Part shown: in pieces, positions 18 to 64,000 of the stretch
Position numbering within the stretch: the stretch's first letter is position 1
How the letters are laid out: each line of letters starts with the position of its first letter
Assembly: GCF_028657945.1 (NCBI RefSeq)
Contig: NZ_CP059693.1
Coordinates: 2,356,001 to 2,420,000, forward strand
Length of the DNA: 64,000 nucleotides
Origin: Thalassomonas haliotis
Lineage (GTDB): Bacteria; Pseudomonadota; Gammaproteobacteria; Enterobacterales; Alteromonadaceae
Reading direction: 5' to 3'
Notes under the pieces: model-generated
Database searches by the model: none
Told to the model about the DNA's origin: nothing
Seen by the model: only the letters and a program-made list of their open reading frames with translations
Translations under genes and position numbers: made by a program

Positions 18-1592
18 TTATTGATAATTCCAATTTAAGGTGACACCGCTATAGGCAGAATAGGCTCTGACACCAATATGCCAGGTACCTGCTCCCGGGT
101 TGGAGAAAGTACAGACTTCGTCATTACCGTATTCGTACGGGCGACAATCCCAGCGGGAAGTGGTTGGTCTGTTGCCTTCATTGACATATAAATCAGCATC
201 ACCCGTCCCGCCTGAAATAGTTACGGTTAATGAACTTACACCTGCTGGCATGTCAAAGGAGAAACGTTTCCAGCCGCTAGATTTGGACAGGTTCTCATGG
301 GTTTCGCCGTCGCCGTCCGGCGGCTCAACGATAGGACCTCCAACATCACATCCCTCTGCGGTAATGGCATCGACAGCGGCTTTGGCCTGGACAATACCGT
401 AACCATAGCTGGTATCGCGTCCTGAGGCGCCTTTGTCTTTAGCCGTCATATTTAATGCATTACGCATTTGCGCTGCGGTACAGGAAGGGTGGTGACTCCA
501 CACCAATGCGGCAACACCGGATACATGCGGGGTTGCCATGGAAGTACCGCTCCAGCTGGCATAACCGCCCGGAATGGTCGAGTTGACACTGACGCCCGGT
601 GCGGCGATTTCTACCTGGCTGTTATATTGTGAAAACGAGGCTTTGTTTTCACTGCTGTCAACGGCGGCAACCGACATAACCGAGTCATAAGAGGCCGGGT
701 AAGACATAGTGCTGTTACCGTCGTTGCCGGCAGCAGCAATAGATAAAACGCCGTTATTGAGCGCAGAGGAGAAGGCATTTGCTTCAGAGTTCATGCTGGC
801 ACCGCCGCCTAAACTCATGCTGATGACACTGGCGCCGGCGGCTTCACATTGTGAAATAGCCGCGATTAAGTCTGAGCCATAAGCCCAGTTGCCGGCGTCA
901 TTAAATACTTTAACGATATGTAAACCCAGTTGACCGCTTGGGTTGACACCAACAACACCTGTGTTGTTGCCGCCTAACGCCGAAATGGTACCGGCAACAT
1001 GGCTGCCGTGGCCATGGCCGTCATTATTCCAGTTGCCGGTATCGTTGCCGTTACCGTCATTATCATCGCCGGTGATACCTGAGCTCATTAAATCTTCATG
1101 GCCCATGTTATAACCGGTGTCGACGATACAAACCTTCTGGTTGCCCGTGGCGGCATCGCTGACCTGATCTGCCTGTACCATAGTGATGCCGTAAGGTGTG
1201 GACTCGGCCAAAACACGTGGGTTATCAAGTATGTAGCGGGGTTGGTCCACTTCCACCATTTCAATTTGATCGTTATTTAATAAGTTGGCGACATCCGACT
1301 GCTTCATTTCAATGGCAACACCATTGATCCTGTCTAAGGTGCGTATGGTTTTCGCGCCATAGCTTTGCATCAGGCTCTGTGCCCCGGCCGCAGACATTTT
1401 ACCGCCGGACATAATCGTGGCGGTATTTTTGAAGGTAACGACATAACGTTCATTTACAACCGCCGGTTTAACATCGCCCGGGCCGTTAAAGGTGGCCTCT
1501 GCCGCTACGCCTGTGTTGATCGATGCCAATACGGCAACGCTGATTGCTCCAAGGGTAAATCCTTTCGCTAGTCCTTTAATATTTTTATTCAT
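18..1592 (-). CDS. Secreted S8 (subtilisin-like) serine peptidase with C-terminal PPC domain
   Basis: Extracellular endoprotease of 524 aa. A Sec signal peptide covers about residues 1–31 (hydrophobic core then GVAAEA). An I9-type propeptide spans about 45–120. The S8 catalytic domain spans about 130–410, with Asp158 (IVDTG), His195 (HGSHVAGT), the oxyanion Asn290 (AAGN) and nucleophile Ser351 (GTSMATPHVSG), so the triad is complete. After a Pro/Asp linker (about 418–430), residues 435–524 form a bacterial pre-peptidase C-terminal (PPC) domain with the typical GDADLYV core; in this family it is usually removed during maturation or aids secretion. It is monocistronic. An inverted repeat lies in its 5' region (1625–1662). 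The family call is certain; the substrate is unknown, probably environmental protein. Confidence 0.96.
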   Translation of the reverse strand: MNKNIKGLAKGFTLGAISVAVLASINTGVAAEATFNGPGDVKPAVVNERYVVTFKNTATIMSGGKMSAAGAQSLMQSYGAKTIRTLDRINGVAIEMKQSDVANLLNNDQIEMVEVDQPRYILDNPRVLAESTPYGITMVQADQVSDAATGNQKVCIVDTGYNMGHEDLMSSGITGDDNDGNGNDTGNWNNDGHGHGSHVAGTISALGGNNTGVVGVNPSGQLGLHIVKVFNDAGNWAYGSDLIAAISQCEAAGASVISMSLGGGASMNSEANAFSSALNNGVLSIAAAGNDGNSTMSYPASYDSVMSVAAVDSSENKASFSQYNSQVEIAAPGVSVNSTIPGGYASWSGTSMATPHVSGVAALVWSHHPSCTAAQMRNALNMTAKDKGASGRDTSYGYGIVQAKAAVDAITAEGCDVGGPIVEPPDGDGETHENLSKSSGWKRFSFDMPAGVSSLTVTISGGTGDADLYVNEGNRPTTSRWDCRPYEYGNDEVCTFSNPGAGTWHIGVRAYSAYSGVTLNWNYQ

Positions 1593-1624
1593 GTTTTTCT
1601 CAATAGTTAGTGATTAAAACTTTA

Positions 1625-1662
1625 TAACCGCCTTAATCCTTTATCTCCTTTAACGGCGGTTA
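1625..1662 (-). promoter_or_regulatory. Inverted repeat in the 5' region of the subtilase gene
   Basis: Arms TAACCGCC (1625–1632) and GGCGGTTA (1655–1662) are perfectly complementary around a 22-nt loop, about 33 nt upstream of the subtilase start codon. It could be a 5'-UTR hairpin or an operator. Seen directly; role inferred. Confidence 0.4.
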
Positions 1663-2033
1663 CAGTGACACTAAGTACAGGCTGTTGAAGCAATAAGGTG
1701 CACGCTTATTTTTCAGCAGGTGCTCGAAAATCACTTAGTAACTAAAAAAGGTAGTCGAGAAAATTAACAGGTCAAATTTTAATTTTCACCTGTAACGTAC
1801 CTTTTGTTCACAAAATAAACAATTCTATTACATTTAAAAGATTAGATTTCCAGCTAAGTCTTTCTTTGAGCTGGTTTTCTTTGATGTGGAGCAAGTTATC
1901 GCTTAGCGGTGAAAATATCTAAAAAAAATGAAAAATATCGCGTTTCGGCAAAGTCGCCGGGGGAAATTAAAAAATAAACCGCTAACTTCTGTATAATGGC
2001 CGTTTTTGTTACCACTGAACATCATTAAAGAAT
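1663..2033. other. Divergent intergenic region between the subtilase and rsuA
   Basis: AT-rich and non-coding. A perfect TATAAT at 1992–1997, 36 bases before the rsuA ATG, is a good -10 element, but no convincing -35 is visible. No other structure recognised. Confidence 0.5.
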
Positions 2034-2729
2034 ATGCGCCTTGATAAATATATTTGTAAAAGTACCGAATTAACGAGAAATGAAGCGAAAAAGCTGTTAA
2101 AAACCGGTTTGGTGACGGTTAATGCTGAGGTGGTCAAAAATGGTGCTTTACAGCTTAGCGACGCTTGCCAGGTAGCGGTTGAAGGCCAGTTATTAACTAA
2201 ACGCTCTGCCCGCTATATCATGATGTTTAAGCCGCTCGATACGATTTGCTCTAATGTTGATGAAGTGCATCCGTCGGTATTACATTTTCTTGATGTCGAT
2301 AAAGCGTTTGACCTGCATATTGCCGGCCGCTTGGATGTCGACACCACAGGTTTAGTGTTGATCACCGATGACGGACAGTGGTCGCATCAAATTACCTCTC
2401 CCCGTAAAGCCTGCCGGAAAAGATACCGGGTATGGCTGGATCAGCCGGTTGCGCCATCGCTAGCCCAAGCATTCGCCCGCGGCGTACAGCTTAAAGGTGA
2501 GTCAACACTTACTCAACCGGCACAAGTAGAAGTGATCACTGAAAAAGAAGTCCTACTGACGATAATGGAAGGCAAGTACCACCAGGTAAAACGTATGTTT
2601 GCTGCCGTGGGCAATCATGTTGTGGGCCTGCACCGGGAAAAAATTGGCGAGATCACTCTGGATGAGCAGCTAGAGCCGGGGCAGTGGCGTTATTTGACCG
2701 AGCAGGAAATTGCTTCAGTGAGCCAGTGA
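2034..2729 (+). CDS. rsuA: 16S rRNA pseudouridine(516) synthase RsuA
   Basis: Isomerises U516 of 16S rRNA to pseudouridine during small-subunit assembly. The 231 aa match the length of E. coli RsuA. The N-terminal S4 RNA-binding domain (about 1–60, starting MRLDKYI) is followed by the RsuA/RluB/E/F catalytic domain. Its signature GRLDVDTTGL places the catalytic aspartate at residue 101. The ATG start lies 36 bases past a TATAAT box. A strong terminator follows directly, so the gene is probably monocistronic. RsuA is favoured over RluE/RluF because of the S4 domain and the length. Confidence 0.93.
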   Translation: MRLDKYICKSTELTRNEAKKLLKTGLVTVNAEVVKNGALQLSDACQVAVEGQLLTKRSARYIMMFKPLDTICSNVDEVHPSVLHFLDVDKAFDLHIAGRLDVDTTGLVLITDDGQWSHQITSPRKACRKRYRVWLDQPVAPSLAQAFARGVQLKGESTLTQPAQVEVITEKEVLLTIMEGKYHQVKRMFAAVGNHVVGLHREKIGEITLDEQLEPGQWRYLTEQEIASVSQ

Positions 2730-2740
2730 AAATAAAGCTT

Positions 2741-2778
2741 AAGCAGCCCGGCACTATTACCGGGCTGCTTGCGTTTTT
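2741..2778. terminator. Bidirectional rho-independent terminator, rsuA / PEP-CTERM gene
   Basis: Eleven-base-pair perfect stem (AAGCAGCCCGG with CCGGGCTGCTT) around an 8-nt loop. A short T-run follows on the + strand and a T-rich tail follows on the - strand. It sits between two convergent genes, and the - strand stop codon overlaps the T-run. Confidence 0.9.
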
Positions 2779-3397
2779 ATGCGCGCTGTCTTTTACGGGA
2801 AAAAGCAAAACCTGCCAACCCCAGGCCGAATAAGGCTAAAGAACCCGGCTCAGGTACCGAGGAAGAAAGTTGGCCGGTAAAGCCGATATTATTAAAGTCG
2901 ACCTGGCCATTGTCGCCGCTTAATACTGCATTGACATACTGGACATTGGACGGGAACGACAGGGCATAATCCTCTGCAGACAGGGCTGTGCTGCCCAGGG
3001 CCGGCATGACGTTTAACAAACTGCCCACCAGGTTATGCCCGGCATCAAAGAAGTTAAAATCAATATTATCTACATCATAACCTTCGCCAAAATAGTTCCA
3101 AAAATGTAAGGTGGTCAGGTTATATTCCATGCCGAAGTCGAAATCGAGTTCGAGCATGCCGCCGTTGATCCAGACATGGGTATTTTGGGCATGACTTTCT
3201 ATGGCCTCGGCAGAAGGGGCATCTATGATACTGGCCAGGGAAGCCGAAGTGGAGCGGTTGGCAAAAGGTTCAGCGGCCATACTGCTGCCCAGTGAAACCG
3301 AGATATTTTCATGGTTCAGGTAAATAGGGGTTGCACCGGCCACCTGGGACAGGCCAGTTAAGGCTAAGGTTAAAGCTGCTAATGTAAATTTGTGCAT
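2777..3397 (-). CDS. PEP-CTERM sorting domain-containing secreted protein
   Basis: 206-aa exported protein of unknown function. It has a signal peptide at about 1–22 (ending VAGA) and a textbook PEP-CTERM tail: the VPEPGSLALFG motif, a hydrophobic helix, then a basic SRKRQRA end. In bacteria with exosortase (EpsH/XrtA) this tail directs processing and export to the surface or exopolysaccharide matrix. The middle (about 25–175) is rich in aromatic, Asp and Asn residues and looks like a beta-sandwich. No exosortase is encoded in this window, so the partner must be elsewhere. Convergent with rsuA. Confidence 0.85.
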   Translation of the reverse strand: MHKFTLAALTLALTGLSQVAGATPIYLNHENISVSLGSSMAAEPFANRSTSASLASIIDAPSAEAIESHAQNTHVWINGGMLELDFDFGMEYNLTTLHFWNYFGEGYDVDNIDFNFFDAGHNLVGSLLNVMPALGSTALSAEDYALSFPSNVQYVNAVLSGDNGQVDFNNIGFTGQLSSSVPEPGSLALFGLGLAGFAFSRKRQRA

Positions 3398-3447
3398 ATT
3401 ATCTCCATCATTATTGTTATTTTGGTTAAGTTGAATTGCTTGTGTGT

Positions 3448-3966
3448 TTAAATCTTACTGGCAACGGGTTCCTGCGCTTTTGTTATTTGCACGCTTTGCT
3501 CTTGCCTGACCGTATGCTCAGCGGCTTTTTCGGTTATTTCATCTATTTGCTGTTGTAAGGCCGCCAGTTGCTCGGCTTTCTGCTCGTCGGTTAAGTTTTC
3601 ATTTGCTGTAACCTTCTGCATCTGCTCTTCAAGTTCCTGCAGTTTTTCCCGGTCCAAGCCGACACGCTGGTCTAAGGTGCCCTGGATTGCTTTGTCCATA
3701 AAGTCTTCGCGGCTGACTTTGGCCGGGGACATGGCTTGTCTGCTGCGCTCGATTGCCTGGTTGCTGGCCAGTGCCTGATATCTGTCTACCGGGTCTTGCT
3801 GATGAGTTTGTCCCCGTGCGGCGGCGCTGGCGGCAGGGGAGATAGTGACACTGTCGTTTTGGCGCTGATGACTATACGCCTGGTTTGCATCGGATAATTT
3901 TTGAAATTGATTCTTGGTATCAGCCCGGCTAGGGGGGGCGTATAAATTTAATCCGTTAACATTCAT
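3448..3966 (-). CDS. Hypothetical protein with C-terminal coiled coil
   Basis: 172 aa, no signal peptide, not assigned to a family. The N-terminal half is polar and probably disordered. It contains a NDSVTISPAA segment of the kind seen near the start of some flagellar or motility-associated proteins in marine gammaproteobacteria. Residues about 110–155 are Glu/Gln/Leu-rich with heptad character (coiled coil). A cytosolic scaffold-like role is possible, but function is unknown. The ATG (MNVNGLN) follows a plausible Shine-Dalgarno. It lies 50 bases upstream of the PEP-CTERM gene on the same strand and could be co-transcribed with it. Confidence 0.7.
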   Translation of the reverse strand: MNVNGLNLYAPPSRADTKNQFQKLSDANQAYSHQRQNDSVTISPAASAAARGQTHQQDPVDRYQALASNQAIERSRQAMSPAKVSREDFMDKAIQGTLDQRVGLDREKLQELEEQMQKVTANENLTDEQKAEQLAALQQQIDEITEKAAEHTVRQEQSVQITKAQEPVASKI

Positions 3967-4252
3967 TATCGTGCGTCCCGGTAAAGTTGTTGTTCCTTTT
4001 ATCTGCTTACTCTATGTAAAGGCAACAATCAGGCCAAAACCGAATAAAGCGCTTCCCCGGTTATTTAAGGTCTTTTGGCCGCTTATTTATTGAAATTACG
4101 GCCAAATTTTGCCGTTTTTTGCCTGTGTGCCTATGGCAGGGGCAAGTTTATGCCGGGAAGGAAGCACAGCTATCATCAGTTAAGGGGGCTTTTGACATTC
4201 TTGGCGGATAAAGGCAAAGTAAGGCCAATTAAAATTATCTAAGTTATTGTCA

Positions 4253-9686: not shown

Positions 9687-9743
9687 ACTTTTACCCTAAA
9701 AAAAACTGGCCGCACTATAGCATACTGACACAAGGCAATCGAC

Positions 9744-10508
9744 TTAACTTTGTAAAAAATCCCCGACTATTTTATTAAAGATGCTGGTTTTTTCAGCATG
9801 TAACCAATGTCCCGCCCCCTGAATGATTTTTGCCTGGCTGCCTGGGTATAATTTCTGGATAATCTCCCTGTGCTCGGCCCGGATATAATCCGAGTCGCCT
9901 CCTTTAATAAACAGGGTCTTACCCTGATATTGTCCCTGTCCCTGATAGCCTTTCATTATTTGCGGATAACAGGCAGCAATATAATCGAGATGACATTTAA
10001 AATGTAATTTTCCGTCTGAAATGGCTAAATTTCTTAATAAAAATTGACGTACCCCAAGGTTATCGACATATCGGGCTAACTGTTCGTCGGCTTCTTTACG
10101 TTTGCTGATAGCCGTTAAATCAATGGACTGCAAGCCCTGGATGATGTGTTGGTGGTGCGCCGGATAAGCCACCGGGGCAATATCTGCCACTATCAGTTTT
10201 GATACCCGCTCAGGCGAGGTTAACGCCACTTCCATGGCGATTTTTCCTCCCATGGAATGCCCCAAAATAGCGGTTTCGTTTATGCCCAGGTGATCAAGCA
10301 GGTCGATGACATCTTGTGCCATGGTGCTATATTCCATCTCCCGTTCATGAAAAGAGCTGCCATGGTTGCGTACATCCATGCTGGTGACCCGGTATTGTCC
10401 GGCCAGACCTTTGGCGACCATGTTTAAATTTTCCATCGAGCCGAACAGGCCATGGATAAGCAGCACGTCAGGGCCGGTGCCATTTTGCTGATAATTAACT
10501 AACTTCAC
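9744..10508 (-). CDS. ybfF: Alpha/beta-hydrolase esterase YbfF
   Basis: Serine esterase acting on short-chain acyl and acyl-CoA-like esters in the cytosol. I place the start at a GTG (10508) preceded by GGGG. This gives 254 aa, the exact E. coli YbfF length, and begins VKLVNYQQ, aligning with the family N-terminus. A longer in-frame extension to 10598 (30 extra residues) lacks family character. Motifs: oxyanion HGLFGSMENL, nucleophile elbow GHSMGGK, and the catalytic His in GAGHWLHAEKT near the C-terminus. It is the first gene of the - strand unit toward fldA and diverges from seqA. Confidence 0.92.
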   Translation of the reverse strand: MKLVNYQQNGTGPDVLLIHGLFGSMENLNMVAKGLAGQYRVTSMDVRNHGSSFHEREMEYSTMAQDVIDLLDHLGINETAILGHSMGGKIAMEVALTSPERVSKLIVADIAPVAYPAHHQHIIQGLQSIDLTAISKRKEADEQLARYVDNLGVRQFLLRNLAISDGKLHFKCHLDYIAACYPQIMKGYQGQGQYQGKTLFIKGGDSDYIRAEHREIIQKLYPGSQAKIIQGAGHWLHAEKTSIFNKIVGDFLQS

Positions 10509-10656
10509 GTAAACCCCACATACTAGCTCTATGAGTACCTTGTTTATATAGGCGGGAATTGTGCTTTTTTTTTGCCGAGGTTGCAATTCCCGGGGCAATA
10601 AGATTAACCAAAAGTTAGCGAAGAAAATTGTAAACTAATGCCATTCCCCTATAGAG

Positions 10657-10680
10657 ACTTGCCTTTAAGGCAAGTATAAT
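10657..10680 (+). promoter_or_regulatory. seqA promoter: perfect palindrome abutting a TATAAT -10
   Basis: A 19-bp palindrome with 9-bp arms (ACTTGCCTT, one centre base, AAGGCAAGT; 10657–10675) runs directly into TATAAT (10675–10680). The start codon of seqA is 34 bases further on. No good -35 lies at 16–18 bp, so the palindrome may be an operator or activator site. Sequence observed; regulation inferred. Confidence 0.55.
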
Positions 10681-10713
10681 CCCGGGGCGATTAAATCTTT
10701 TGCAGGGTAGTTA

Positions 10714-11367
10714 ATGAAAAACATAGAGATAGATGAAGAGCTTTATCAATATATTGCCACCAACACACAATTTATTGGTGAAAGTGCCTCATCGATTTTA
10801 CGGCGTTTATTATCTTTAGAGAGCAGTGAGCAAACAACTGCCGCAGGCAATGAAGCAAATGTTGCCGACAATCAGCAGCAAAGCACACAGCAAAAAAATA
10901 CACAGGGCGCAAAAAACAAAGTTGAAGCCAAGGCCGAAACCAAAACGAAAAAAGCGGATCTGGATGTTAGCGTTGCCGGTAGCGAAAAAGCCGTTGAGAA
11001 AAAGCCTCAGCCAGTAGCAGTTAACGGCAATGAAACCGTTTTTAATTATATTAATAAAGAAGAGTTGGGTATGCAGCGTGGCGCGGTTGGCCGCTTCTTA
11101 TTGATTTTAGCAGCACTATATCGGGTACATCCGCAGCAGTTTTCCCTGGTCAGGGATATCCGAGGCCGGGACCGTTTGTATTTTTCCGATAACGAGTCAG
11201 ATCTCAGCGCCAGCGGCAGCAGCACTAAACCCAGACAGATCCCGGACAGTCCTTACTGGGTGATCACCAACTCCAATACCACACGTAAGAAAATGATGTT
11301 AACGGAAGTTGCCGTTTCTTTGGGTTACGGGGAAAGTGACGCCGAAAAAATTCGCGAATTATTATAA
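10714..11367 (+). CDS. seqA: SeqA, negative modulator of replication initiation
   Basis: Binds hemimethylated GATC behind forks and at oriC, sequestering the origin from DnaA. 217 aa versus 181 in E. coli. The N-terminal oligomerisation domain (about 1–35, [14 protein letters not shown]) and the C-terminal DNA-binding domain (about 105–217, ending [13 protein letters not shown]) are both clear. The extra length lies in a Gln/Lys/Ala/Glu-rich disordered linker (about 38–100). It is followed by pgm after 20 bp, the conserved seqA–pgm pair. Its presence implies Dam methylation in this organism. Confidence 0.96.
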
Positions 11368-16939: not shown

Positions 16940-17701
16940 TTATCTTATCAGTAAGTATCCCTTGCCGCGGATGGTTTTTATGATGGCGGCTGCCTCATCC
17001 GATAATTTATGCCTTAGCTGAGAAATAATAATATCAATGAAGCGGCTGACCCCATCGTATTCATAGCCTTTTATCTGTTCAAATAAAAAGTTTCTAGAGA
17101 CGATTTCACCGGCATGTTGGGCCAGGATCAATAGCAGTTCATATTCCGGAGTGCTTAAATGGAGTTCTTTTTCCTGGAAATAGACGATACGGTTGGCGAC
17201 ATGAATGTGGATATCGCCTGCGGTGAGCATGTCTTGTGTTGAAGCGGCTGCTTCGCCAGTGGTGTTGTTTTGCTCTGTTATCGGGGGGTCATTGTCAGTG
17301 TTTTTTTGCTGAGCGTTTTTATATTCAATTTCTTCGATACGGCGTAATAAGGCGCGAATGCGCGCCAGCAGTATTCTTGGCTCTATCGGTTTTTTAACAT
17401 AGTCATCGGCTCCTAGCTCCAGGCCAACGACTTGATCTATGGCTTCATCGGATGCGGTCAGCATCAGCAATGGACCCGGATATTGGTTTCTGACCGCACG
17501 GCATATGCTAAAACCGTCTCTTCCGGGTAGGTTAAGGTCGAGAATAACCAGGGCGGGTTGTTCATTGATGATTTGATCTACGGCATCTAAGCCATTGTCA
17601 ATGATATTGGTGACAAATCCTTGAGCATTTAAGTATTCACTCACCAGCAATGCCAGGTCCTGATCGTCTTCCACTACTAATATTTGTTTTTTTTCGCTCA
17701 T
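16940..17701 (-). CDS. OmpR-family response regulator
   Basis: 253 aa from MSEKKQ (17701); an upstream in-frame extension to 17755 looks non-native. The receiver domain carries the phosphoacceptor Asp55 (LVILDLNLPG), the acidic pair EDD at 11–13 and the switch Lys in YVKKPIEP. A long low-complexity linker (about 125–165, Asn/Thr/Glu-rich) precedes a winged-helix effector domain (about 165–253). The receiver resembles RstA. It lies 127 bp downstream of the acidic-repeat gene and is the third gene of the unit started by the histidine kinase. Two-component genes are normally adjacent; here an unrelated gene separates them. Confidence 0.93.
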   Translation of the reverse strand: MSEKKQILVVEDDQDLALLVSEYLNAQGFVTNIIDNGLDAVDQIINEQPALVILDLNLPGRDGFSICRAVRNQYPGPLLMLTASDEAIDQVVGLELGADDYVKKPIEPRILLARIRALLRRIEEIEYKNAQQKNTDNDPPITEQNNTTGEAAASTQDMLTAGDIHIHVANRIVYFQEKELHLSTPEYELLLILAQHAGEIVSRNFLFEQIKGYEYDGVSRFIDIIISQLRHKLSDEAAAIIKTIRGKGYLLIR

Positions 17702-17828
17702 AAAGTGTCTCGGGTAATATTGATGTTTTAATTTTGAGACTTGATAAATCCTCAAATGAATAAAACATTAATTTCCCTGAATTTTTACCTTTAAAAGCGA
17801 ATATAGCAAGCAGAGATTGCTTTTCTTG

Positions 17829-19226
17829 CTATGGTTCATGCTCCTCGAATTCTTCGTCCGTGAAGTCTTCTTCGAACTCTTCTTCTCCGAATTCTTCCTC
17901 AGGCGCTTCTTCTTCGAACTCCTCTTCTTCGAATTCTTCCTCAGGCTCCTCTTCTTCGAATTCCTCTTCTTCGAATTCCTCTTCTTCGAATTCTTCCTCA
18001 GGCGCTTCTTCTTCGAATTCCTCTTCTTCGAATTCTTCCTCAGGCTCCTCTTCTTCGAATTCCTCTTCTTCGAATTCTTCCTCAGGCGCTTCTTCTTCGA
18101 ATTCCTCTTCTTCGAATTCTTCCTCAGGCGCTTCTTCTTCGAACTCCTCTTCCTCGAATTCTTCCTCAGGCGCTTCTTCTTCGAACTCCTCTTCCTCGAA
18201 TTCTTCCTCAGGCGCTTCTTCTTCGAACTCCTCTTCCTCGAATTCTTCCTCAGGCTCCTCTTCTTCTAAGTCGTCTTCTTCGAATTCCTCTTCTTCAAAG
18301 TCGTCTTCTTCAAAATCGTCTTCTTCGAATTCCTCTTCTTCTAAGTCACCTTCTTCGAATTCCTCTTCTTCGAATTCCTCTTCTTCTAAGTCACCTTCTT
18401 CAAAATCGCCTTCTTCAAAGTCACCTTCTTCAAAGTCACCTTCTTCAAAATCGCCTTCTTCAAAATCGTCTTCTTCGAATTCCTCTTCTTCTAAGTCACC
18501 TTCTTCTAAGTCACCTTCTTCAAAGTCACCTTCTTCAAAGTCGCCTTCTTCAAAATCGCCTTCTTCAAAGTCACCTTCTTCAAAATCGCCTTCTTCAAAG
18601 TCGCCTTCTTCAAAATCGCCTTCTTCAAAATCGCCTTCTTCAAAATCGCCTTCTTCAAAATCGCCTTCTTCAAAGTCGCCTTCTTCAAAGTCGCCTTCTT
18701 CATTTTCGTAGAACTCTTCTTCTTCAAGTTCTTCGTTAGATAAATCCTCCTCAAGCTCTTCTTCTAAGAATTCATCTTCTTCGAACTCTGCTTCTAGGAA
18801 TTCATCTTCTTCGGGTTCTTCCTCCAACTCTTCCTCCAAGGATTCATTTTCTTCGTGTTCCTCTTCGAGTTCTTCCTCTAATTTCTCGTCAGAGTCATCA
18901 CCTTCGTCCGAACTGCTCTCAAGAAAAATGATCTCATTAAGGTAATCAGTTTCTAAGCTGAGTTCCTCCTCTTCATTGCCCGGCTCTTCGTCAGGCTCTT
19001 CGCTATACTCTTTGTTAGACAAGTCATCCGGCTCGTCATCTATCGGGTAAGTGATTCCCGTTGAGGAATCACCGGATTCTATGGCAATGAGTTCATTAAG
19101 CAGCTCCAGTTCACTGAGCATGTCCCGCTCGTTAGCCATAGCGACGTTATAGCTAAAAAGAGCAGTAAACAAACAGGCAATAGCTGTTTTGTTATACTTA
19201 TGTTCGACTTTTGTCGAAGCTCTCAT
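17829..19226 (-). CDS. Exported, extremely Glu-rich low-complexity repeat protein between kinase and regulator
   Basis: 465 aa. A Sec signal peptide (about 1–31, hydrophobic core then AMA before NERD) predicts export. After a mixed acidic region (32–180), the central part is a run of pentapeptides of the form EE-xx-F/L (about a dozen EEGDF copies, then EEGDL, EEEEF and EEDDF variants). The C-terminal part is a 14-residue repeat built on EEEEFEEEAPEEEF. There are almost no basic residues after the signal peptide. Its ATG overlaps the kinase stop (ATGA), so the two are translationally coupled. Register GDFEE matches the pentapeptide-repeat consensus (small, D/N, L/F, x, x), so a quadrilateral beta-helix bearing carboxylate ladders is conceivable. 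Binding of divalent cations or cationic peptides is inferred. I do not recognise a family. Confidence 0.85.
   Translation of the reverse strand: MRASTKVEHKYNKTAIACLFTALFSYNVAMANERDMLSELELLNELIAIESGDSSTGITYPIDDEPDDLSNKEYSEEPDEEPGNEEEELSLETDYLNEIIFLESSSDEGDDSDEKLEEELEEEHEENESLEEELEEEPEEDEFLEAEFEEDEFLEEELEEDLSNEELEEEEFYENEEGDFEEGDFEEGDFEEGDFEEGDFEEGDFEEGDFEEGDFEEGDFEEGDFEEGDFEEGDFEEGDLEEGDLEEEEFEEDDFEEGDFEEGDFEEGDFEEGDFEEGDLEEEEFEEEEFEEGDLEEEEFEEDDFEEDDFEEEEFEEDDLEEEEPEEEFEEEEFEEEAPEEEFEEEEFEEEAPEEEFEEEEFEEEAPEEEFEEEEFEEEAPEEEFEEEEFEEEEPEEEFEEEEFEEEAPEEEFEEEEFEEEEFEEEEPEEEFEEEEFEEEAPEEEFGEEEFEEDFTDEEFEEHEP
17880..18290 (-). repeat. 42-bp tandem repeat array coding 14-residue acidic unit
   Basis: Nearly identical 42-bp copies (14 codons, alternating AP and EP variants) within the 3' half of the acidic gene. 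Phase is preserved, so copy-number change would keep the frame. Confidence 0.85.
18400..18705 (-). repeat. 15-bp tandem repeat array coding EEGDF
   Basis: Many almost perfect 15-bp units on the - strand. They differ mainly at wobble positions (tca/tcg, aag/aaa), indicating recent expansion plus drift. Confidence 0.85.
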
Positions 19227-20896
19227 TCCGGCTTCTCCACCGAGCCTGGAGCTAAAGCACTTTTTGCCAGGTCATTTTCCGATAAGGTTTTCTTTGCTTC
19301 TGTCCCTAAAGAGGAAGATGCCGGATCTCTGGCAGGCAAGTGCTCGGCACATAAACAATGGAATTTAAAGTTGGCACCTCCTAAAGAACTGGCCTCAACC
19401 CAGACTTTTGCCTGGTTCAACAGGGCAATACGCGACACTATCGCCAGGCCTAAGCCGTAACCCTTGATCTTCTTATTGCGGCTGCTGTCGAGTCGGGTAA
19501 AAGGTTCAAAAATTCGTTCCCTGTCTGCCTGGGGAACACCGGCGCCATCATCTTCGACGCTGATGCAAAATCCCTGCTTGGTTTGCTCCAGCATAACATC
19601 AACACGACTATTGGCATGTTTACCGGCATTGCTGATCAGGTTCTGTAATAACCGGTCAACATCATCGACATGACAATAACCGGTAATATTATCTTGTTTT
19701 TTAAGGGTAAAGTTGATGTGGGAGTAGGGGAGTTTCGCCAAATCCAATACTGAGGTCAGCAGTTCATCAATATTGACCAGGCTGCGCTTATAGTCTGCCG
19801 GATCAATATCAAGTTTATACAGGCACAGCATCTCATCAATCAGGGTTTCAAGCTGGTCGATATCCCGGCTGATGCCGATAACTTTTTCATCCAGCTGTGA
19901 TTTTACCGCTTCGCTGTTATCGGCTTGCTCTACCTCGTCACAGGCATCGGATAAAATCTGCAACCGAAAGCGGATCCTGGCTATCGGTGTGCGTAACTCG
20001 TGAGAAACCGCCTGGGTAATTTCTTTCTGATGCTGCAGCAACTGCTCAATTCTGCTGGCCATTTCATTCACTTTAATGCCCAGCTGGGTGATGACATCGT
20101 TGCCTTTGATCGGCACCCGGTTTTTGATCTTTTTCGGACCAAACTCACCTACAATACGGTTCACTACATTAAGGCGGTATTCCAGGCGGTACACCAGGAA
20201 GTAGACCACCAGGGAAGTGATCAGCAGGCAGATGGAGATCAGGATCACCAGTAACTTTGTGGTCAGCGGCTCGAACTTATTGATCACGCCAACATGCAGA
20301 ATTTTATTTTGCTTGGTTTTTACATACACAGAATAACCGACATCCTGACTCAGTGAACTCACCACCACTTCCCCTTTATTGAGGCGAATTTTCTGCTGGG
20401 AATCCAGGTTAAGCTTATGCTTATTGATAAAGGTGACGGGGAACGAAAACAGCTTTTGTAATTTTTGTAATTCCTGCTCCTGATCACTGTCTTTTACCCG
20501 GGCTAATTCGTTGAGGATCAACAGGGCAATGGCGCGTAATTGCTGCTCGCCGATGTGATCTAAGGCAATGGAGATTTCCTGGTTTAAATGGGTCATGGCA
20601 ATATTGAGTTTGCCTTCACCGGCTATGGTTAACCGCCAGGGATCTTTTACCACTTTGTTTAAGGTGGTAATGGACGGATTAAGGCCGGTCATTTTCCCGA
20701 CCAGGGATAACCAGCGCTCTTTGTTCTTGTCTTGCTGTCTGTTATAACCTTCTGATATCAGTACCAGGCTGCCTTGCAGCACCGACTGGCTATAAGAGGA
20801 TAAGCGGCTTTGCAAATTCACCTGGTAGGTGGCGTAAACCCCCGCAATAGACACCAGGATGGCGAGAAAAATACCGCTATAAATACGAACAAACAT
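19223..20896 (-). CDS. Sensor histidine kinase (RstB/EnvZ-like)
   Basis: 557 aa inner-membrane kinase. TM1 is at about 5–24, a periplasmic sensor region of about 185 residues follows, and TM2 is at about 212–235. A HAMP linker leads to HisKA with phosphoacceptor His299 (AVSHELRTPIARI). The HATPase domain has N box LLQNLISNAGKHA, G1 EDDGAGVP and G2 KGYGLGLAIV. All catalytic boxes are intact. The architecture is RstB-like. A C-terminal extension of about 40 residues (Ala/Ser/Glu-rich) follows the ATPase domain. It is the first gene of a - strand unit (kinase, acidic repeat protein, response regulator) and diverges from the TG/ATP-grasp operon with about 290 bp between. Confidence 0.94.
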   Translation of the reverse strand: MFVRIYSGIFLAILVSIAGVYATYQVNLQSRLSSYSQSVLQGSLVLISEGYNRQQDKNKERWLSLVGKMTGLNPSITTLNKVVKDPWRLTIAGEGKLNIAMTHLNQEISIALDHIGEQQLRAIALLILNELARVKDSDQEQELQKLQKLFSFPVTFINKHKLNLDSQQKIRLNKGEVVVSSLSQDVGYSVYVKTKQNKILHVGVINKFEPLTTKLLVILISICLLITSLVVYFLVYRLEYRLNVVNRIVGEFGPKKIKNRVPIKGNDVITQLGIKVNEMASRIEQLLQHQKEITQAVSHELRTPIARIRFRLQILSDACDEVEQADNSEAVKSQLDEKVIGISRDIDQLETLIDEMLCLYKLDIDPADYKRSLVNIDELLTSVLDLAKLPYSHINFTLKKQDNITGYCHVDDVDRLLQNLISNAGKHANSRVDVMLEQTKQGFCISVEDDGAGVPQADRERIFEPFTRLDSSRNKKIKGYGLGLAIVSRIALLNQAKVWVEASSLGGANFKFHCLCAEHLPARDPASSSLGTEAKKTLSENDLAKSALAPGSVEKPE

Positions 20897-21186
20897 AAAT
20901 CCGGATCACCTTCAAAAAACGAAATTAACAAGCTGGTCCAAAATCCATGGAATAGCTGTTGGTAGGATACCTGAACTACTGTATCTTAATCGCCTTTTTT
21001 CTGCAAAAAGCCAGGGGGCAAAGTAGCGCTATCTCCTTTATTCTTCCCCACTTGAAGGGGAAAAAAGCAGTATTTGCCAACAAGTCCCTACATAGCCGAA
21101 CAAAACCATAACAATAGTCTCACTGAGTAAGGGGGTTATTTTACCGATAATAAAGTCTGTGTTTTTTACTTGGCAGACCCTTTGAA
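20897..21186. other. Divergent intergenic region between the two-component unit and the TG/ATP-grasp operon
   Basis: About 290 bp carrying both promoters. No palindrome or direct repeat strong enough to name as the regulator's box could be picked out by eye. There is no coding potential. Confidence 0.4.
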
Positions 21187-23628
21187 ATGAGCATGAGAAT
21201 GCAGACCCGCACGGGCAAGATTTTAACAGCAGAAAAACTCCTTATTTTGAGTGCCGTTATCTGTTTTTGTCTTTTGTATTACCAGGGAGATAAGCGTACC
21301 GGTTGGATAACGCCTACTACCTTGTACAGTTATGATCTGTCCATGGCGTTTAAATCCACAGTACAAGGGGTGAAGGTTTCTACCTATTTACCGCAAACCA
21401 GCGCCCGGCAGCAAGTGATCAGTGAGTCTGTCGATGCTCCCCATATGGATCTTTCCCGTACCTACTCCATTGCCGGGCAACTGGGGGTATGGCAGGGAGA
21501 GGGGCAGGCGGACAGCATTCATTATCAGGCGAAAATAAAAACCACGCCGGTTAAATACAATTTATTGCCCGATAGTGAAATTGAACCTAACCAGGATGAA
21601 AGTTATAGCGATTATTTGCAGGAAACCGCGGCAATTGCGGTAAATCATCCCGAGATAGATGCCCTGTGGCAGGAGATCAAACCGAAAAATGCCAACAATC
21701 TGCAGCAATCCTTGCAGGCGATTTATGATTATACCTCCGGGCTGGAGACGCTGCCCTTTAAAGGCACTACCAGTTCGTTAACCGCGCTAAGGCTTGGCGC
21801 CGCCAGTTGTAACGGTAAAAGCCGGTTATTTGTTTCCCTGGTGCGCAGTTTAGACATACCCGCCCGTCTGGTGGGAGGTGTGGTACTTAATGAAGTTAAA
21901 AAGCGCACTTCCCATCAATGGGTTGAAGTATTTGTTCAGGGTTATTGGCTCCCCTTTGATCCCACCAATGGCTATTTTGCCGAGCTGCCCGGCCATTACC
22001 TGGAGTTATACCGGGGAGATCAGTCGCTGTTTAAGCATACCGCCAATATCCAATTTGATTATCAATTTTCAAGTGCTGAAAACCGGGTTGCCCCGGGGTT
22101 ATATTTCAACAGTTATCAGCAGGCGGGCGATACCATCAACCTGGCAAAATTGTTCAAACCGTTTCATGTAAGCGAGCAAACCATAGCGATCTTTTTGTTA
22201 TTTCCGCTGTGCGCTTTGCTCACGACTTTCTTCAGGAACCTGGTGGGCCTGCAAACCTTTGGTGTTTTTGTGCCTATGCTGGTGGCGATCACTTGTACCT
22301 ATAGTGGTTTACTGAGCGGCTTGCTTGGTGTGTTGCTGGTAGTGTTAGTGGCATTTAGCACCTTGATTGTGCTGGAAAAAGCCAGGCTCTTGGTGATCCC
22401 CCGCCTGGCGGCCACTATGACGGTAATTACCATTTTTGTGTTGCTGGTGTTTTACTTTCTCCCCGGCAGGCATGCCATGAATACCGGTGCTTTTGCCCTT
22501 TTTCCCGTGGTGATCATCAGTTTTATCGCCGAAAAACTTACCCAGCTCAGCAGTGAGCGCGACTGGCAGGGATTACTGTCCCGCTCTGCAGGTACTTTGG
22601 TGGTGGTCACTGTGTGTTACGCGTTTTTGCAATCTATTTACCTGCAAAGTATTTTTACCCTTTATCCCGAAGCCCTGCTGATTGTCCTGGCGCTGCAAAT
22701 CGGTATTGGCCGCTGGAACGGTATCCGTTTAAGTGAGTTGATCCGTTTTAATCGTTTGTTGAAAAAAGACGAAGCCGTGATCGGCATTAACGAACGTAAC
22801 CGGGAAATTGTTTACCGTTTGAATAACGCCAAAGACCTGCTGTTGGCGGCAGATAAGTTAAAAACCAAGCAACTGCTGGCAAAACACAACATAGCCGTTC
22901 CCGGCACCGTGTTCTCCTGCCGGTCTCACAGCCAGGTTGGGCAGCTTGATGCGATACTGGCCCAGCATCATGAATTTGTGATCAAGCCTAATTGCGGCAG
23001 CCAGGGCAACGGTATCGTAGTGATCACCGCCCGGGAAGGAGATAGCTATACTTCTGCCGGCGGCAAATGCTGGACCGTACAGATGCTTAAAGATCATGTC
23101 AGCGACATTATCAGCGGCAGCTTTTCCCAGCATGGCGAGCAGGACATTGCCTACATCGAACCCCTGATCAAGCAAGACAGTCAGCTGCAAACCTTGGCTT
23201 CTGGAGGGCTGGCGGATATTCGCGTGATAGTGGCCAACAAGGTTGTTATTGCCGCCATGTTGCGTTTGCCAACGGCAAAATCCCAGGGCAAGGCCAATTT
23301 ACATCAGGGAGCCATAGGCGCCAGTGTCTGCCTGGAAACCGGTAAATTAACCCATGCCAGTTTGCAGGGAAAAACCCTGAGCCATCACCCGGATACCGGG
23401 GTTAAGCTCGCCGGGTTTGCTTTGCCTTACTGGCCAGAAATTTTGGATATGAGCCGGGCATGTGCCCATGCCATGCCGCTTGGTTATTTGGGGGTGGATA
23501 TCTGTATTGACCAGCGGCAAGGGCCGCAGGTATTGGAAGTTAATGGCCGCCCAGGATTAGAAATTCAGAATGTGCAGCAAAAAAGCTTAACCCGTGAACA
23601 CTTTTACCCTTTGGTGGAACCCGTATGA
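21187..23628 (+). CDS. Fusion of transglutaminase-like/7TM membrane protein and RimK-like ATP-grasp ligase
   Basis: 813 aa. TM1 is at about 15–33. An extracytoplasmic region then leads to a transglutaminase-like core (about 175–275) in which Cys208 (ASCNGKSRLF), His243 (TSHQWVEVF) and Asp258 (PFDPTNG) occupy the papain-like triad positions. Several TM helices follow (about 332–510, the 7TM_transglut region). The cytoplasmic C-terminus (about 525–813) is an ATP-grasp fold with a FVIKPNCGSQGNGI nucleotide loop and an LEVNGRPGLEIQN metal site (Glu784, Asn786). In other gammaproteobacteria these are usually two genes (7TM_transglut and ATPgrasp_ST, 'alpha-L-glutamate ligase-like'). Here they are one polypeptide. 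The exact substrate is unknown; carboxylate–amine ligation is the family chemistry. The stop overlaps the next ATG. Confidence 0.88.
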   Translation: MSMRMQTRTGKILTAEKLLILSAVICFCLLYYQGDKRTGWITPTTLYSYDLSMAFKSTVQGVKVSTYLPQTSARQQVISESVDAPHMDLSRTYSIAGQLGVWQGEGQADSIHYQAKIKTTPVKYNLLPDSEIEPNQDESYSDYLQETAAIAVNHPEIDALWQEIKPKNANNLQQSLQAIYDYTSGLETLPFKGTTSSLTALRLGAASCNGKSRLFVSLVRSLDIPARLVGGVVLNEVKKRTSHQWVEVFVQGYWLPFDPTNGYFAELPGHYLELYRGDQSLFKHTANIQFDYQFSSAENRVAPGLYFNSYQQAGDTINLAKLFKPFHVSEQTIAIFLLFPLCALLTTFFRNLVGLQTFGVFVPMLVAITCTYSGLLSGLLGVLLVVLVAFSTLIVLEKARLLVIPRLAATMTVITIFVLLVFYFLPGRHAMNTGAFALFPVVIISFIAEKLTQLSSERDWQGLLSRSAGTLVVVTVCYAFLQSIYLQSIFTLYPEALLIVLALQIGIGRWNGIRLSELIRFNRLLKKDEAVIGINERNREIVYRLNNAKDLLLAADKLKTKQLLAKHNIAVPGTVFSCRSHSQVGQLDAILAQHHEFVIKPNCGSQGNGIVVITAREGDSYTSAGGKCWTVQMLKDHVSDIISGSFSQHGEQDIAYIEPLIKQDSQLQTLASGGLADIRVIVANKVVIAAMLRLPTAKSQGKANLHQGAIGASVCLETGKLTHASLQGKTLSHHPDTGVKLAGFALPYWPEILDMSRACAHAMPLGYLGVDICIDQRQGPQVLEVNGRPGLEIQNVQQKSLTREHFYPLVEPV

Positions 23629-25565
23629 AAAATGCCATTTTACCCAGTGTGATCTTTCTGGCCGCCGCCAGCGTGCTTTTTTACCTGGAATACCAGTCAC
23701 AGCATAGCGCTGAAGTTGTGCAAGTTGTTGCGGTGGCGGCGATAGAAAAGGAAAACTTTGAGTTGGTCGGCAGCAATGAGCCTGTGTCTTTGTTGCTTCA
23801 AGAGGCAAAAGGGCAGGTTTCTTCGACTGATAAGGATAGGGCGGAAAAAGCGCAGCAGTTTCTCTGGTTAAAGGGCATAAGTTCGCCGGCCGAACTTTAT
23901 GCCAGCAATCAGTGGCAAGCATTGACGCAAACAAAACAGCAGCTGGCCCGCCTGATATTGGCCAAAGAGGCGATAACCAATAAAAATCCGGTATTGGCGC
24001 TTGAAATGCTGGCTAAGATGCCGACAAAACAATTACATGCCATTAGCGCCGGCTTTTATCTGGCGCTGGCCTATGCCCGTACCGGAGATAAAGCGCAGGC
24101 GATCGCCAGCTATCAAAGTGTGCTGGAGCATGACCCCTCACATCAGGGAGCGGCAATTAATCTAGGTTTGCTGTTTAAAGAAAAGCAGGATTATGCACAG
24201 GCCATTCCCGTATTGGAGCATGCGGTTAACATCAGCCGCGGCACTAAACTGGCAAAAGCCCATGCGATACTGGCGGCGTGTCTTTATCAGCAACAGCAGT
24301 ACCAAAGGGCTTTGGGCCATTACCGAACTTCGATTGAGTACCGTCCCGATCACCCGGGTACCTGGCTGGGGCTGGCAAAAACTCAGGAAAAGCTGCATCT
24401 GCCCTATCAGCAAGTGTTTACCACATTTACAAGAACGGCAAAATTAAATGCCAAACACTATAAGCCGTGGACTGAGTTGGGTCGGTTTCAGCTGGAAAAC
24501 CTCGATTTTTCCGGTGCTGTGCTCTCCCTGAATAAAGCGCTGGAGTTGTCGCCTTTTAACCTTAGCGCCACCCGGGCGCTGGCATGGGCGACTTTTGAAG
24601 CAGGACAAGAGAAAAAAGCGGCGCAATTGTGGCGCTACCTGGCCAAGAATGAAAAAGTAAAAGCCCGGCGTAAACTGGCCCGGCATATGTTAGTCCTGTT
24701 AACCGAAGATCATGAGGCAAGTGCGGTGATCCTGACAGATCTTGAGCAAACCTTGCTTGGCAAGTCACTCAAGAACAGCTTACGGTCCCAGTATGCTTAT
24801 GCCTGGTATTTAGCTCAGCTGATAACAACAGAGCCGAAGCAGGCGATGCCACAACGGACAAGGCTTTTAGGGGAAGAGGGCAAGCAGGAGGGCGCAAAAA
24901 ATACCGACCGCTTCCGTTTTCGCCAGCTTTACCGCTTGGCGCTGCAACAGGAAAAGCGCCAGGAGTTTCAGCAGGCGTTAGCGACTTTAGCCCGGCTGCA
25001 AAAAAGCAACTTGTATGCTTACCCGTTATTGAAAAAGCTCAGCCGCTTGCATTATGGCTTAGGGCAGTTATCACAGGCCAACCAATATGCCGAGCAGGCA
25101 CTGGCATATACGCCCAATGACAGGACGCTATTGCTGCATAAAATAACACTTGATATCGAGCGCGGACATTTTAAACCGGCGCAAAAAAGGCTGAATAAGT
25201 TAGCCCTTTCGGGGGATGGGGAGAGTGACCTTATAGCCTTGTATGCTAAACTAGCCTGGCAACAAAGGGATTGGGAGAATGCCTTAACCTATTATCGGCA
25301 GTTACTAAGGCTAGAGCTGGATAATGAAGCGGCTCATTATCACCTGGCACAAATTTTTCTGGAAAAAGGGGAATCGCCAAAAGCTATCGAACATTTAACG
25401 ACTTTACTGTCGATAAATTCCGGCGCCATAGATGCCCGGTTATTACTGGCACAAATTTATTGTCAGCAAGATGATTTAACAACATGTCACCGGGAAGCCG
25501 CTAAGGTACTGAAACTGGTGCCGACAAACGAACAAGCCCAAAACCTGGTTAACCATTTAATTTAA
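23625..25565 (+). CDS. Membrane-anchored tetratricopeptide-repeat protein
   Basis: 646 aa. An N-terminal signal anchor (about 5–22) is followed by a periplasmic helical solenoid. Many TPR motifs are visible (for example ALAYARTGDKAQAIASYQSV, the HPGTWLGLAKTQEKL region, and a C-terminal block ending KLVPTNEQAQN). It begins within the stop codon of the preceding ATP-grasp fusion (ATGA), so translation is coupled. The barrel gene starts 10 bp after it. A periplasmic scaffold between the inner-membrane enzyme and the outer-membrane barrel is a reasonable inference. Confidence 0.86.
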   Translation: MKNAILPSVIFLAAASVLFYLEYQSQHSAEVVQVVAVAAIEKENFELVGSNEPVSLLLQEAKGQVSSTDKDRAEKAQQFLWLKGISSPAELYASNQWQALTQTKQQLARLILAKEAITNKNPVLALEMLAKMPTKQLHAISAGFYLALAYARTGDKAQAIASYQSVLEHDPSHQGAAINLGLLFKEKQDYAQAIPVLEHAVNISRGTKLAKAHAILAACLYQQQQYQRALGHYRTSIEYRPDHPGTWLGLAKTQEKLHLPYQQVFTTFTRTAKLNAKHYKPWTELGRFQLENLDFSGAVLSLNKALELSPFNLSATRALAWATFEAGQEKKAAQLWRYLAKNEKVKARRKLARHMLVLLTEDHEASAVILTDLEQTLLGKSLKNSLRSQYAYAWYLAQLITTEPKQAMPQRTRLLGEEGKQEGAKNTDRFRFRQLYRLALQQEKRQEFQQALATLARLQKSNLYAYPLLKKLSRLHYGLGQLSQANQYAEQALAYTPNDRTLLLHKITLDIERGHFKPAQKRLNKLALSGDGESDLIALYAKLAWQQRDWENALTYYRQLLRLELDNEAAHYHLAQIFLEKGESPKAIEHLTTLLSINSGAIDARLLLAQIYCQQDDLTTCHREAAKVLKLVPTNEQAQNLVNHLI

Positions 25566-25575
25566 AAGGGAAGAT

Positions 25576-26712
25576 ATGAAACAAACTAACTTTATCAGTA
25601 CGCTGGTGGTGGTTGCGCAAAGTTTAGTGATACCTGTTGCCTATTCCAGTGTCGAACTCACCCTGGGGGGCGGTAGCGATAACAATGCCTTCAGGCTCGC
25701 CGATAAATTCGATCCCCGGTCGGGACAATTTTATAAAACGACTTTTTCCTACAGGGATAAATTTGATAATGGTCTTTATGTCAATCTTAAAGCGACCAAG
25801 ACCGGCTTTGAATCGAAAATGGAAAATGCCGAAAGCGATAAACAGGATCTTAAACTGGGTTTCCGTCACACTTTTGATAACAGCAACAAGTTTAATTTTG
25901 CCGTTTCCGGCAGCAATTACGATAAAACCTATATCAGCCGGACAACCGGCAAGGTCGGGACATCCGGCGGTAAAGAAATTGCAGACAGGTATGATAACCG
26001 CTGGTGGCGTCTGCAATCTGACTATAGTTTTAACCTCAACGAGAAACATAGCCTTAACCTGTTTGCCGAGTTGCTTAGCAAGGATTATGAAGAGGTTGAC
26101 GGTTCAGACTCATTATCTAACCTGGACTACAAGCAGCTGGGTACCGGTTTACGCTGGTTTTATAAACCCGCGAAAAACTGGCGTCTGGAAACCTCTTTTC
26201 GCTACCGGGAGCGTGAATATGATGATAAAAGAGCCCGGGATAACGAGGGCAGGAGCATAGAAAACTCCGAGCTGAGTTACGATTATTACCGCGCCCTGGT
26301 TTCAGGCATCTGGAGTATCAATAAACATCACCGCCTGGTGTTAAGGGCCTACCGGGAAGACCTGGAAGATAACTACAGCGGTTATTACGACCGTGAAACC
26401 GTGAATATCTCCCTGAACTGGCGCTATCGCTGGGATAAAAACAATACCTTGAATACCCGGTTGCAGTACATAGATTACCGCAATGCCAATGACCTGGCCC
26501 AGGATGAAAGTGAGCAGGATGAAGATGAAAATAACTCGGTCGATAACCAGGGCACGGTATTCTCCATCAATTACCAGCGCTTGTTATGGAAAAACAAGGA
26601 CTATAAAGTGAACGGCTATGTCAAAACCAGCTGGTATAACTATGATGCGCCAAGGGATATCTACCAGTATCAGCGCAGCATTGTCGAACTGGGGGCGAGT
26701 GTGAAGTTTTAA
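25576..26712 (+). CDS. Outer-membrane beta-barrel protein
   Basis: 378 aa. A signal peptide is at about 1–24 (VVVAQSLVIPVAYS). The rest consists of alternating amphipathic strands (YVNLKATKTGF, WWRLQSDYSFNL, NWRLETSFRYRER and similar) separated by Asp/Asn-rich turns. It ends in an aromatic/hydrophobic C-terminal strand (GASVKF) with terminal Phe, the BAM recognition signal. It resembles DUF560/surface-porin-like barrels but I cannot name a family. It is the third and last gene of the operon and is followed by a strong terminator. Confidence 0.8.
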   Translation: MKQTNFISTLVVVAQSLVIPVAYSSVELTLGGGSDNNAFRLADKFDPRSGQFYKTTFSYRDKFDNGLYVNLKATKTGFESKMENAESDKQDLKLGFRHTFDNSNKFNFAVSGSNYDKTYISRTTGKVGTSGGKEIADRYDNRWWRLQSDYSFNLNEKHSLNLFAELLSKDYEEVDGSDSLSNLDYKQLGTGLRWFYKPAKNWRLETSFRYREREYDDKRARDNEGRSIENSELSYDYYRALVSGIWSINKHHRLVLRAYREDLEDNYSGYYDRETVNISLNWRYRWDKNNTLNTRLQYIDYRNANDLAQDESEQDEDENNSVDNQGTVFSINYQRLLWKNKDYKVNGYVKTSWYNYDAPRDIYQYQRSIVELGASVKF

Positions 26713-63889: not shown

Positions 63890-64000
63890 ATACATAGCAG
63901 TATTTCATCGTCGCGTTGGCCTTACTTAAAATTTTCCTGGTTCTGCCCTTGTTGTTGTCGTGATAAATGTGTAATTTGCTTTGATATCTGCAGGATGAAA

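Follow-up and report, generated by a model that had tools for sequence, protein, structure and literature searches.

Exported, extremely acidic repeat protein encoded between an RstB-like kinase and an RstA-like regulator and divergent from a transglutaminase‒ATP-grasp fusion operon in Thalassomonas haliotis

The window analysed here is a stretch of 64,000 nucleotides (nt) from the genome of Thalassomonas haliotis, a single contig of 6.45 Mb. On its - strand (16940-20896), an exported acidic repeat protein, hereafter X, is encoded between an RstB-like sensor histidine kinase and an RstA-like response regulator. As judged by the co-occurrence of genes, X belongs with a regulated machine built around a divergently encoded protein, in which a periplasmic transglutaminase fold, a seven-transmembrane (7TM) part and an ATP-grasp domain are fused (the fusion); this is the best-supported part of our interpretation. 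Beyond it, we tentatively suggest from the gene context that X may be the exported polyanion of a regulated polyglutamate-type synthesis and export machine, a mimic of the product that reports to the kinase. The features of the two divergent operons are listed below (aa, amino acids; dN/dS, ratio of nonsynonymous to synonymous substitution rates).

16940..17701, - strand: RstA-like OmpR-family response regulator, 253 aa (Response_reg and Trans_reg_C above cut-off)
17829..19226, - strand: X, exported acidic repeat protein, 465 aa (frame open in 4/4 genus genomes)
17845..18702, - strand: acidic repeat tail of X, EEGDF and EEEEF/EEEEP/EEEAP units (TRF, composition)
18915..19133, - strand: conserved mature N-terminus of X, with the leucine/acidic motifs SELELLNELIAIES and LSLETDYLNEIIFLES (alignment, dN/dS)
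19134..19226, - strand: signal peptide of X, residues 1-31 (sequence and hydropathy)
19223..20896, - strand: RstB-like sensor histidine kinase, 557 aa (HisKA and HATPase_c above cut-off)
20897..21186, no strand: divergent intergenic region common to both operons (conserved blocks in four genus genomes)
21187..23628, + strand: transglutaminase-7TM-ATP-grasp fusion, 813 aa (PF01841, PF14402, PF14397 and PF08443 above cut-off)
23625..25565, + strand: TPR protein, 646 aa, with an N-terminal membrane segment (by eye) and a net charge of +17 (domain scan)
25576..26712, + strand: outer-membrane beta-barrel, 378 aa, 16 strands (model pLDDT 90.6)

The association was examined in the best 80 of 189 confirmed fusion loci, all chosen by similarity to the fusion, which come from many marine Gammaproteobacteria and also from Alphaproteobacteria, Bacteroidota and others. 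A complete kinase open reading frame (ORF) of at least 150 aa is present in nine of them (L096, L097, L099, L100, L121, L123, L132, L136 and L147), and in all nine an exported acidic ORF lies directly downstream of the kinase, which fits the idea of an accessory sensor put forward in an earlier reading of the window from its letters (the sequence-only reading). Six of these acidic ORFs are complete; those of L099, L100 and L121 are cut at the contig end. Where the stretch upstream of the fusion spans 3 kb or more, an acid tail was found in 6/6 kinase loci versus 0/50 others (Fisher 3e-8, the kinship of the loci being ignored; scan window of 40 residues, for which the short truncated tail of L121 did not qualify), and X therefore looks more like a part of the regulation than a required substrate, with the proviso that in the 50 tail-less loci it could be encoded elsewhere in the genome. 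Less than 3 kb upstream is present in the remaining three of the nine kinase loci and in all four loci that have an acid window but in which no kinase was found (L103, L108, L131 and L167). L103 and L108 start within an acid tail, next to which comes a response regulator (assigned by Pfam); the fusion, a gene in the TPR position and the barrel come after it on the same strand. In L183, X follows the kinase and the contig ends within X. Altogether, acid X linked to a kinase or regulator was seen in 15 genomes (the nine loci, L103, L108, the window, G001, G002 and G712). L109 duplicates L047, L097 duplicates G003 and L136 duplicates L091/G320, and L124, L125, L126 and L129 are g38 genomes already in the set, so that some loci enter the pooled figures twice.

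The contigs of L099, L100, L121, L103, L108, L131, L167 and L183 all end inside acidic tails, and such proteins are therefore probably under-represented in draft genomes.

In a kinase tree of 27 rows, 12 of the 13 acid-X kinases fall together with a support of 96/96 (midpoint root), L123 lying outside; three long branches leave the detail of the tree unsure, and the L132 kinase entered it with its unknown residues removed. A class-wide kinase search of 369 genomes gave matches in six (T. haliotis, G004, G712, G426, G580 and G689), of which G712 carries acid X and G004 a locus of type C; no X was seen in G426, G580 or G689, the first two of which have a regulator gene immediately upstream. A search in the taxonomic order of G712 covered four genomes. 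Beyond the four genus genomes, the kinase and X genes share 4 nt in both L123 and L147, 8 nt in L132 and 1 nt in L096; in Marinifaba a gap of 5 nt separates them. L123, L132 and L147 have an additional gene of 458-553 aa between X and regulator, barrel-like by eye, which gave a TPR match above cut-off only in L123. With the TPR_Slam model (cut-off 35.2), L123 scored 21.5 and L089 14.5 bits, and no match was obtained in L147, L084 or L132.

Close relatives keep the arrangement intact. At E <= 1e-60 the kinase search matched 4/59 genomes, T. haliotis included, all of the same genus, and all four show the same kinase-X-regulator order and the same divergent operon. The sequence-only reading had named loss or frameshift of the acidic ORF in close relatives as evidence against it; the frame is open in all four genomes (465, 511, 523 and 553 aa). 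The dN/dS of the first 52 codons of X is 0.05-0.34 in six pairs versus 0.07-0.10 for the kinase, and on these two grounds X is not a chance ORF. In the genus alignment, the signal peptide, the first 52 residues and a second short motif are conserved, and the repeats vary in unit and number. The ATGA at 19223-19226, in which the kinase gene ends and the X gene begins, was pointed out in the sequence-only reading and recurs in the other three members of the genus.

X contains 227 Glu and 45 Asp residues in 465 aa (49% Glu, 10% Asp) and seven Lys plus Arg, with a net charge of about -265 and a longest Glu run of 4. The sequence-only reading had described it as signal-peptide-bearing and mostly Glu; extremely acidic and exported it is, but Glu does not exceed half. 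The signal peptide (Sec type, ending in AMA, followed by NE) was assigned by eye and hydropathy. In a Pfam scan at E up to 0.01 the sole match of X was Pentapeptide_4, at 35.8 bits versus a gathering score of 38, and the first 114 residues gave zero matches at E up to 1. A pentapeptide-repeat fold was rejected, the match being below cut-off and the repeats being replaced in other genera. Antisense to the repeats lie long Ser-rich and Phe/Leu-rich ORFs (17860-18711 and 17817-18269, both + strand), whose presence appears to follow from how the repeats are composed.

In sequence, the acid tails of the different families are unrelated. All 13 kinase-linked X proteins have a signal peptide (hydropathy and eye), and most have a short leucine-rich acidic motif, related by eye in other families to those of the N-terminus in the window. 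Lys plus Arg reach 7% in the short truncated tail of L121, make up 2-3% of two further tails and stay at 0-1% in the remaining ten. The repeat units are EEGDF/EEEEF in Thalassomonas, EEELED in Marinifaba, EEEED/PSEEEE in Kangiellaceae, ELEDE in Saccharospirillaceae, DELDD/DELGD in Oleispira, EEEEP in Pseudomaricurvus and GDE in G712; the tail of Bermanella L147 is an Asp-rich acid run of 55 residues, that of L100 (Spongiibacteraceae) has a Glu run of at least 47, and that of L108 is built of EDEEIEEQEELDEDEEELEE units. An acidic protein is thus kept with unlike repeats in distant relatives, and charge therefore seems to matter more than sequence; as far as alignments and composition tell, X seems to be conserved by its charge.

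What kind of machine stands opposite X? The 813-aa fusion is related to Pseudomonas RloB and RloC, joined in one protein. It scored 257.1 bits with TIGR02291 (RloC-type alpha-L-glutamate ligase-like; cut-off 314.2), a clearly related domain, and 105.7 bits with NF052267 (RloB; cut-off 900), short of the family score. Its structure model (pLDDT 84.4) matched the putative cysteine protease 3isr in Foldseek (TM 0.72 by target length) and also RimK, whose PDB title is poly-alpha-L-glutamate synthetase; the modelled ATP-grasp end resembles RimK. The transglutaminase triad Cys208, His243 and Asp258 is kept throughout the genus; in L056 and L057, where the RloB-type protein is split, it is not. Cys and His are retained in 50/51 full-length fusions and Asp in 35/51, which is not the inactive transglutaminase pattern of Rlo. 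Some genomes are present twice in these counts, and the 50/51 figure is biased, since the scan patterns for the fusion contained this Cys or His; a further full-length fusion with unknown residues was excluded from the count. Fusions found without these patterns (four Thalassomonas, Marinifaba, G037 and three g38) also retain Cys and His.

The fusion and TPR genes overlap by 4 nt. The barrel model matched porin, FhaC/CdiB, PelB and AlgE-like folds, which are generic throughout and do not fix its identity; Slam is absent among the matches listed, which proves nothing. A barrel was found by profile search in 51/80 fusion loci, and a separate one was not found in L048, L124, L125, L126 or L129. 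In g38 (Kangiella), the TPR protein of the fusion operon (L051:5340-7448) has acidic stretches in two places, following the membrane segment and at the C-terminal end. The whole arrangement recalls synthase-dependent exopolymer export (AlgK/AlgE, PgaA and PelBC), with its inner-membrane synthase, periplasmic TPR protein and outer-membrane barrel, except that the window operon has an amino-acid ligase in place of a glycosyltransferase and that the match of its barrel to AlgE/PelB-type barrels is generic.

On the two-component side, the order and strand given in the sequence-only reading were borne out by ORF and domain scans. The best NCBIfam model for the kinase is RstB (235.3 bits, cut-off 478) and the second-best is CpxA; the regulator scored 210.8 bits with the RstA model (cut-off 330), so that neither protein reached the equivalog score. 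The kinase sensor comprises 196 residues between two hydrophobic segments. The regulator start was taken as the ATG at 17701 (253 aa) instead of the TTG of the ORF list. A consensus scan found no terminator-like sites in the gaps between kinase, X and regulator. With the E. coli RstA box, no match with up to three mismatches was found in the divergent region 20897..21186, and the whole window held fewer matches than most of its shuffles. Although the curated RstB and RstA are the best models, the window differs from the RstAB of Enterobacteria in that its proteins lie far under the curated cut-offs, the kinase comes first, an additional gene stands between the two, and the fusion operon is divergent. 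X is also like accessory proteins of the CpxP type in being a small exported partner whose gene accompanies that of an envelope-stress kinase, and unlike them in having a polyanionic repeat tail and no matching Pfam family.

The closest described system is the retropepsin-like osmotic stress tolerance operon, rloABC, of P. aeruginosa (PMC12239564, 2025). It shares with the window a 7TM protein with a periplasmic transglutaminase fold, an ATP-grasp alpha-L-glutamate-ligase-like protein, an envelope setting and a link to polyglutamate. In the window, by contrast, the RloB and RloC parts are fused, Cys-His(-Asp) is retained, secreted RloA does not adjoin, and TPR and barrel genes, a divergent two-component system and an exported polyacid are added. 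According to that paper, the secreted protease RloA cleaves polyglutamate in vitro and cleaved reporters with 8 or 10 Glu and none at 6 or fewer; a triple rloA mutant fails at low osmolarity, and deletion of rloB or rloC restores growth of the triple protease mutant there. A proteome query in P. aeruginosa returned no periplasmic or extracellular protein with at least 8 Glu, and the substrate and product of Rlo were left open. In another paper (PMC12096838), Shewanella vesiculosa makes more vesicles after loss of an inactive-transglutaminase-7TM gene. These two were the only relevant papers among the matches listed in the open-access literature, the others being judged by title and start of abstract and most subscription papers lying outside the scope; within the same limits no description of the kinase-X-regulator layout was found, and the sequence-only reading likewise knew of none.

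Combining these lines, we imagine that the ATP-grasp end may make a poly-alpha-glutamate-like chain in the cytosol, that the membrane part of the fusion would hand the chain onward, that the periplasmic transglutaminase domain would trim or attach it, and that the TPR protein and barrel would carry it outward. Going further, X could be a ribosomally made mimic of this product. Its acid tail would compete with the product for the same basic periplasmic sites and its conserved N-terminal helix would contact the kinase, so that free X would report the occupancy of the machine and the regulator would adjust the divergent operon. Such a model would explain the conservation of charge, the conserved N-terminus and the start/stop overlap. 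We consider it rather doubtful, if conceivable, that this amounts to a three-component mode of signalling, in which an essentially sequence-free ribosomal polyanion mimicking the polymer of the adjacent machine partners the kinase and the occupancy of an export line is sensed through competition between product and mimic. If X is a true partner of the kinase, it would be an unusual one, with its charge conserved in place of its sequence. Exported acidic proteins, among them one with 47 or more consecutive Glu, adjoin a fused RloB/RloC relative in several bacterial families, and named organisms are thereby offered for a direct test of the Rlo substrate and product question. The layout described in the sequence-only reading exists, is conserved and goes with the kinase, but that reading overlooked the divergent operon, the best clue to function, as well as a wider family of kinase loci with a mildly acidic or non-acidic middle protein.

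Several observations weigh against X as a product mimic. The product of any such machine is still only inferred, and the N-terminal motif of X, judged by eye, is degenerate. The charge of the kinase sensor does not follow X (-6 to +8 in acid-X loci versus -8 to +13 in others), and the mean charge of the TPR protein is +11 in kinase loci (n=11) versus +15 in others (n=33, including L103 and L108); barrel charge likewise showed no trend with X loci. In PMC12239564, the acidic loop of the CprS kinase is not cut by RloA, and the authors hold genome-encoded acidic stretches to be unlikely substrates; the longest Glu run of the window X is 4, versus the 8 that RloA needs there. Bacteroidota loci of sigma/anti-sigma type (by eye; L150 inspected in full) have no acid tail. 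Finally, an exported polyacid occurs without a kinase in L131 (Maricaulis) and L167 (Polyangia), and X is therefore not tied to the kinase alone.

The two kinase-free loci differ in build. In the Maricaulis metagenome-assembled genome (MAG; L131:1-669, - strand, with 419-4147, + strand), a sigma-70 family sigma factor (above cut-off) and a weakly RseA-like protein (RseA_N, 23.8 bits versus 24) precede the fusion operon, and the exported polyGlu protein is divergent from that operon and cut at the contig end. In the Polyangia MAG, an Asp-rich lipoprotein-like ORF (L167:2-373, - strand), also cut at the contig end, is divergent from the fusion gene. By eye, neither polyacid has the N-terminal leucine motif.

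Among the other explanations, it is unlikely, though worth serious thought, that X is an acceptor or substrate, to which the transglutaminase joins polymer or which it cuts, the kinase merely being encoded alongside. The triad kept in the genus, unlike in the split proteins of L056 and L057, would suit such a role, as would the resemblance of the acid tails to the presumed product and the polyacids of L131 and L167. But an acceptor would be expected wherever the machine is, and the 50 fusion loci with at least 3 kb upstream and no kinase found have no acid tail; moreover X is exported, presumably by Sec, and a cytosolic ligase would hardly see it. X as simply a substrate of RloA was rejected, with 6/12 X genomes showing no retropepsin as far as the genomes are complete. 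The retropepsin search behind this figure included drafts and counted matches regardless of signal peptide, with L123 outside the set; G001 and G003 are rated 100% complete. The T. haliotis genome has one retropepsin, which is RimB-like, lacks a signal peptide as judged by eye and is encoded next to an ATP-grasp-like ORF.

We likewise think it improbable, to a similar or slightly greater degree, that X is a periplasmic fixed-charge osmolyte or a Ca/Mg buffer under two-component control. Its charge, conserved without sequence, is what such a role would call for, and the Pseudomonas triple rloA mutant fails at low osmolarity (PMC12239564). However, the link to kinase and machine, the conserved N-terminus and the start/stop overlap are left unexplained, and a bulk osmolyte would be expected to require high expression. 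The sequence-only reading had proposed that X buffers cations or lures cationic antimicrobial peptides as a decoy; an exported polyanion X is, but both ideas leave its ties to machine and kinase unaccounted for. It is very improbable that X serves as a decoy for basic toxins such as cationic antimicrobial peptides, since a polyanion exported to the periplasm or beyond could act as one but no specific evidence was found and nothing of such kind is among the seven neighbouring proteins scanned. Least likely of all, only the N-terminus is functional and the tail behind it is a functionless low-complexity expansion that drifts: repeat number and unit do vary even inside the genus, but drift would be expected to yield other compositions, and in fusion loci every tail seen next to a kinase or regulator is acidic and has scant Lys/Arg, in several families and with varied spacers between Glu or Asp.

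The T. haliotis genome encodes a second kinase of the same family, with 32% identity to the window kinase. In its locus the kinase gene is followed by those for a 182-aa exported protein (25% Asp plus Glu), for a larger protein of barrel type, for another small exported protein and for the regulator.

L013:4208-9221 and 9738-11213 (C1:1370000-1388000): paralogous locus and divergent trypsin-like protease (homology, Pfam)

A family-wide sensor search gave matches in 16/147 genomes. Of 14 loci from it, 11 encode a small exported protein between the kinase and a TPR- or barrel-type gene, and another is the acid-X locus of Marinifaba; L087 and L088 were left uncounted, as their contigs end close to the kinase. 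The protein in this slot has 11-28% Asp plus Glu in the 12 loci without fusion (these 11 and L013; from the longest ORF, some starts being too early) versus 40-64% in complete fusion-linked X. The family as a whole therefore has an exported protein there, and its extreme acidity accompanies the fusion machine. A trypsin gene adjoins 10/12 of the kinase loci without fusion (Pfam above cut-off in all ten), and none lies in the stretch covered for L093 and L094.

The trypsin-like protease of the paralogous locus carries GDDDQ/GDDDW repeats in its C-terminal part. Small exported proteins with an 'NGCT' stretch and an RR-x-PHK-type motif occur at L089:9207-9614, L084:5546-5893, L013:4987-5376 and elsewhere; the two tested had no Pfam match above cut-off, and beside these trypsin-type kinase loci they are possibly protease inhibitors. 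Elsewhere in the window, 75-nt tandem repeats at 46681-47175 encode NQDLSSWDVSNVTDMSDMFYLAKAF-like units, which we take to resemble BspA/DUF285 surface repeats, and three almost identical 51-nt tandem copies lie at 63737-63894.

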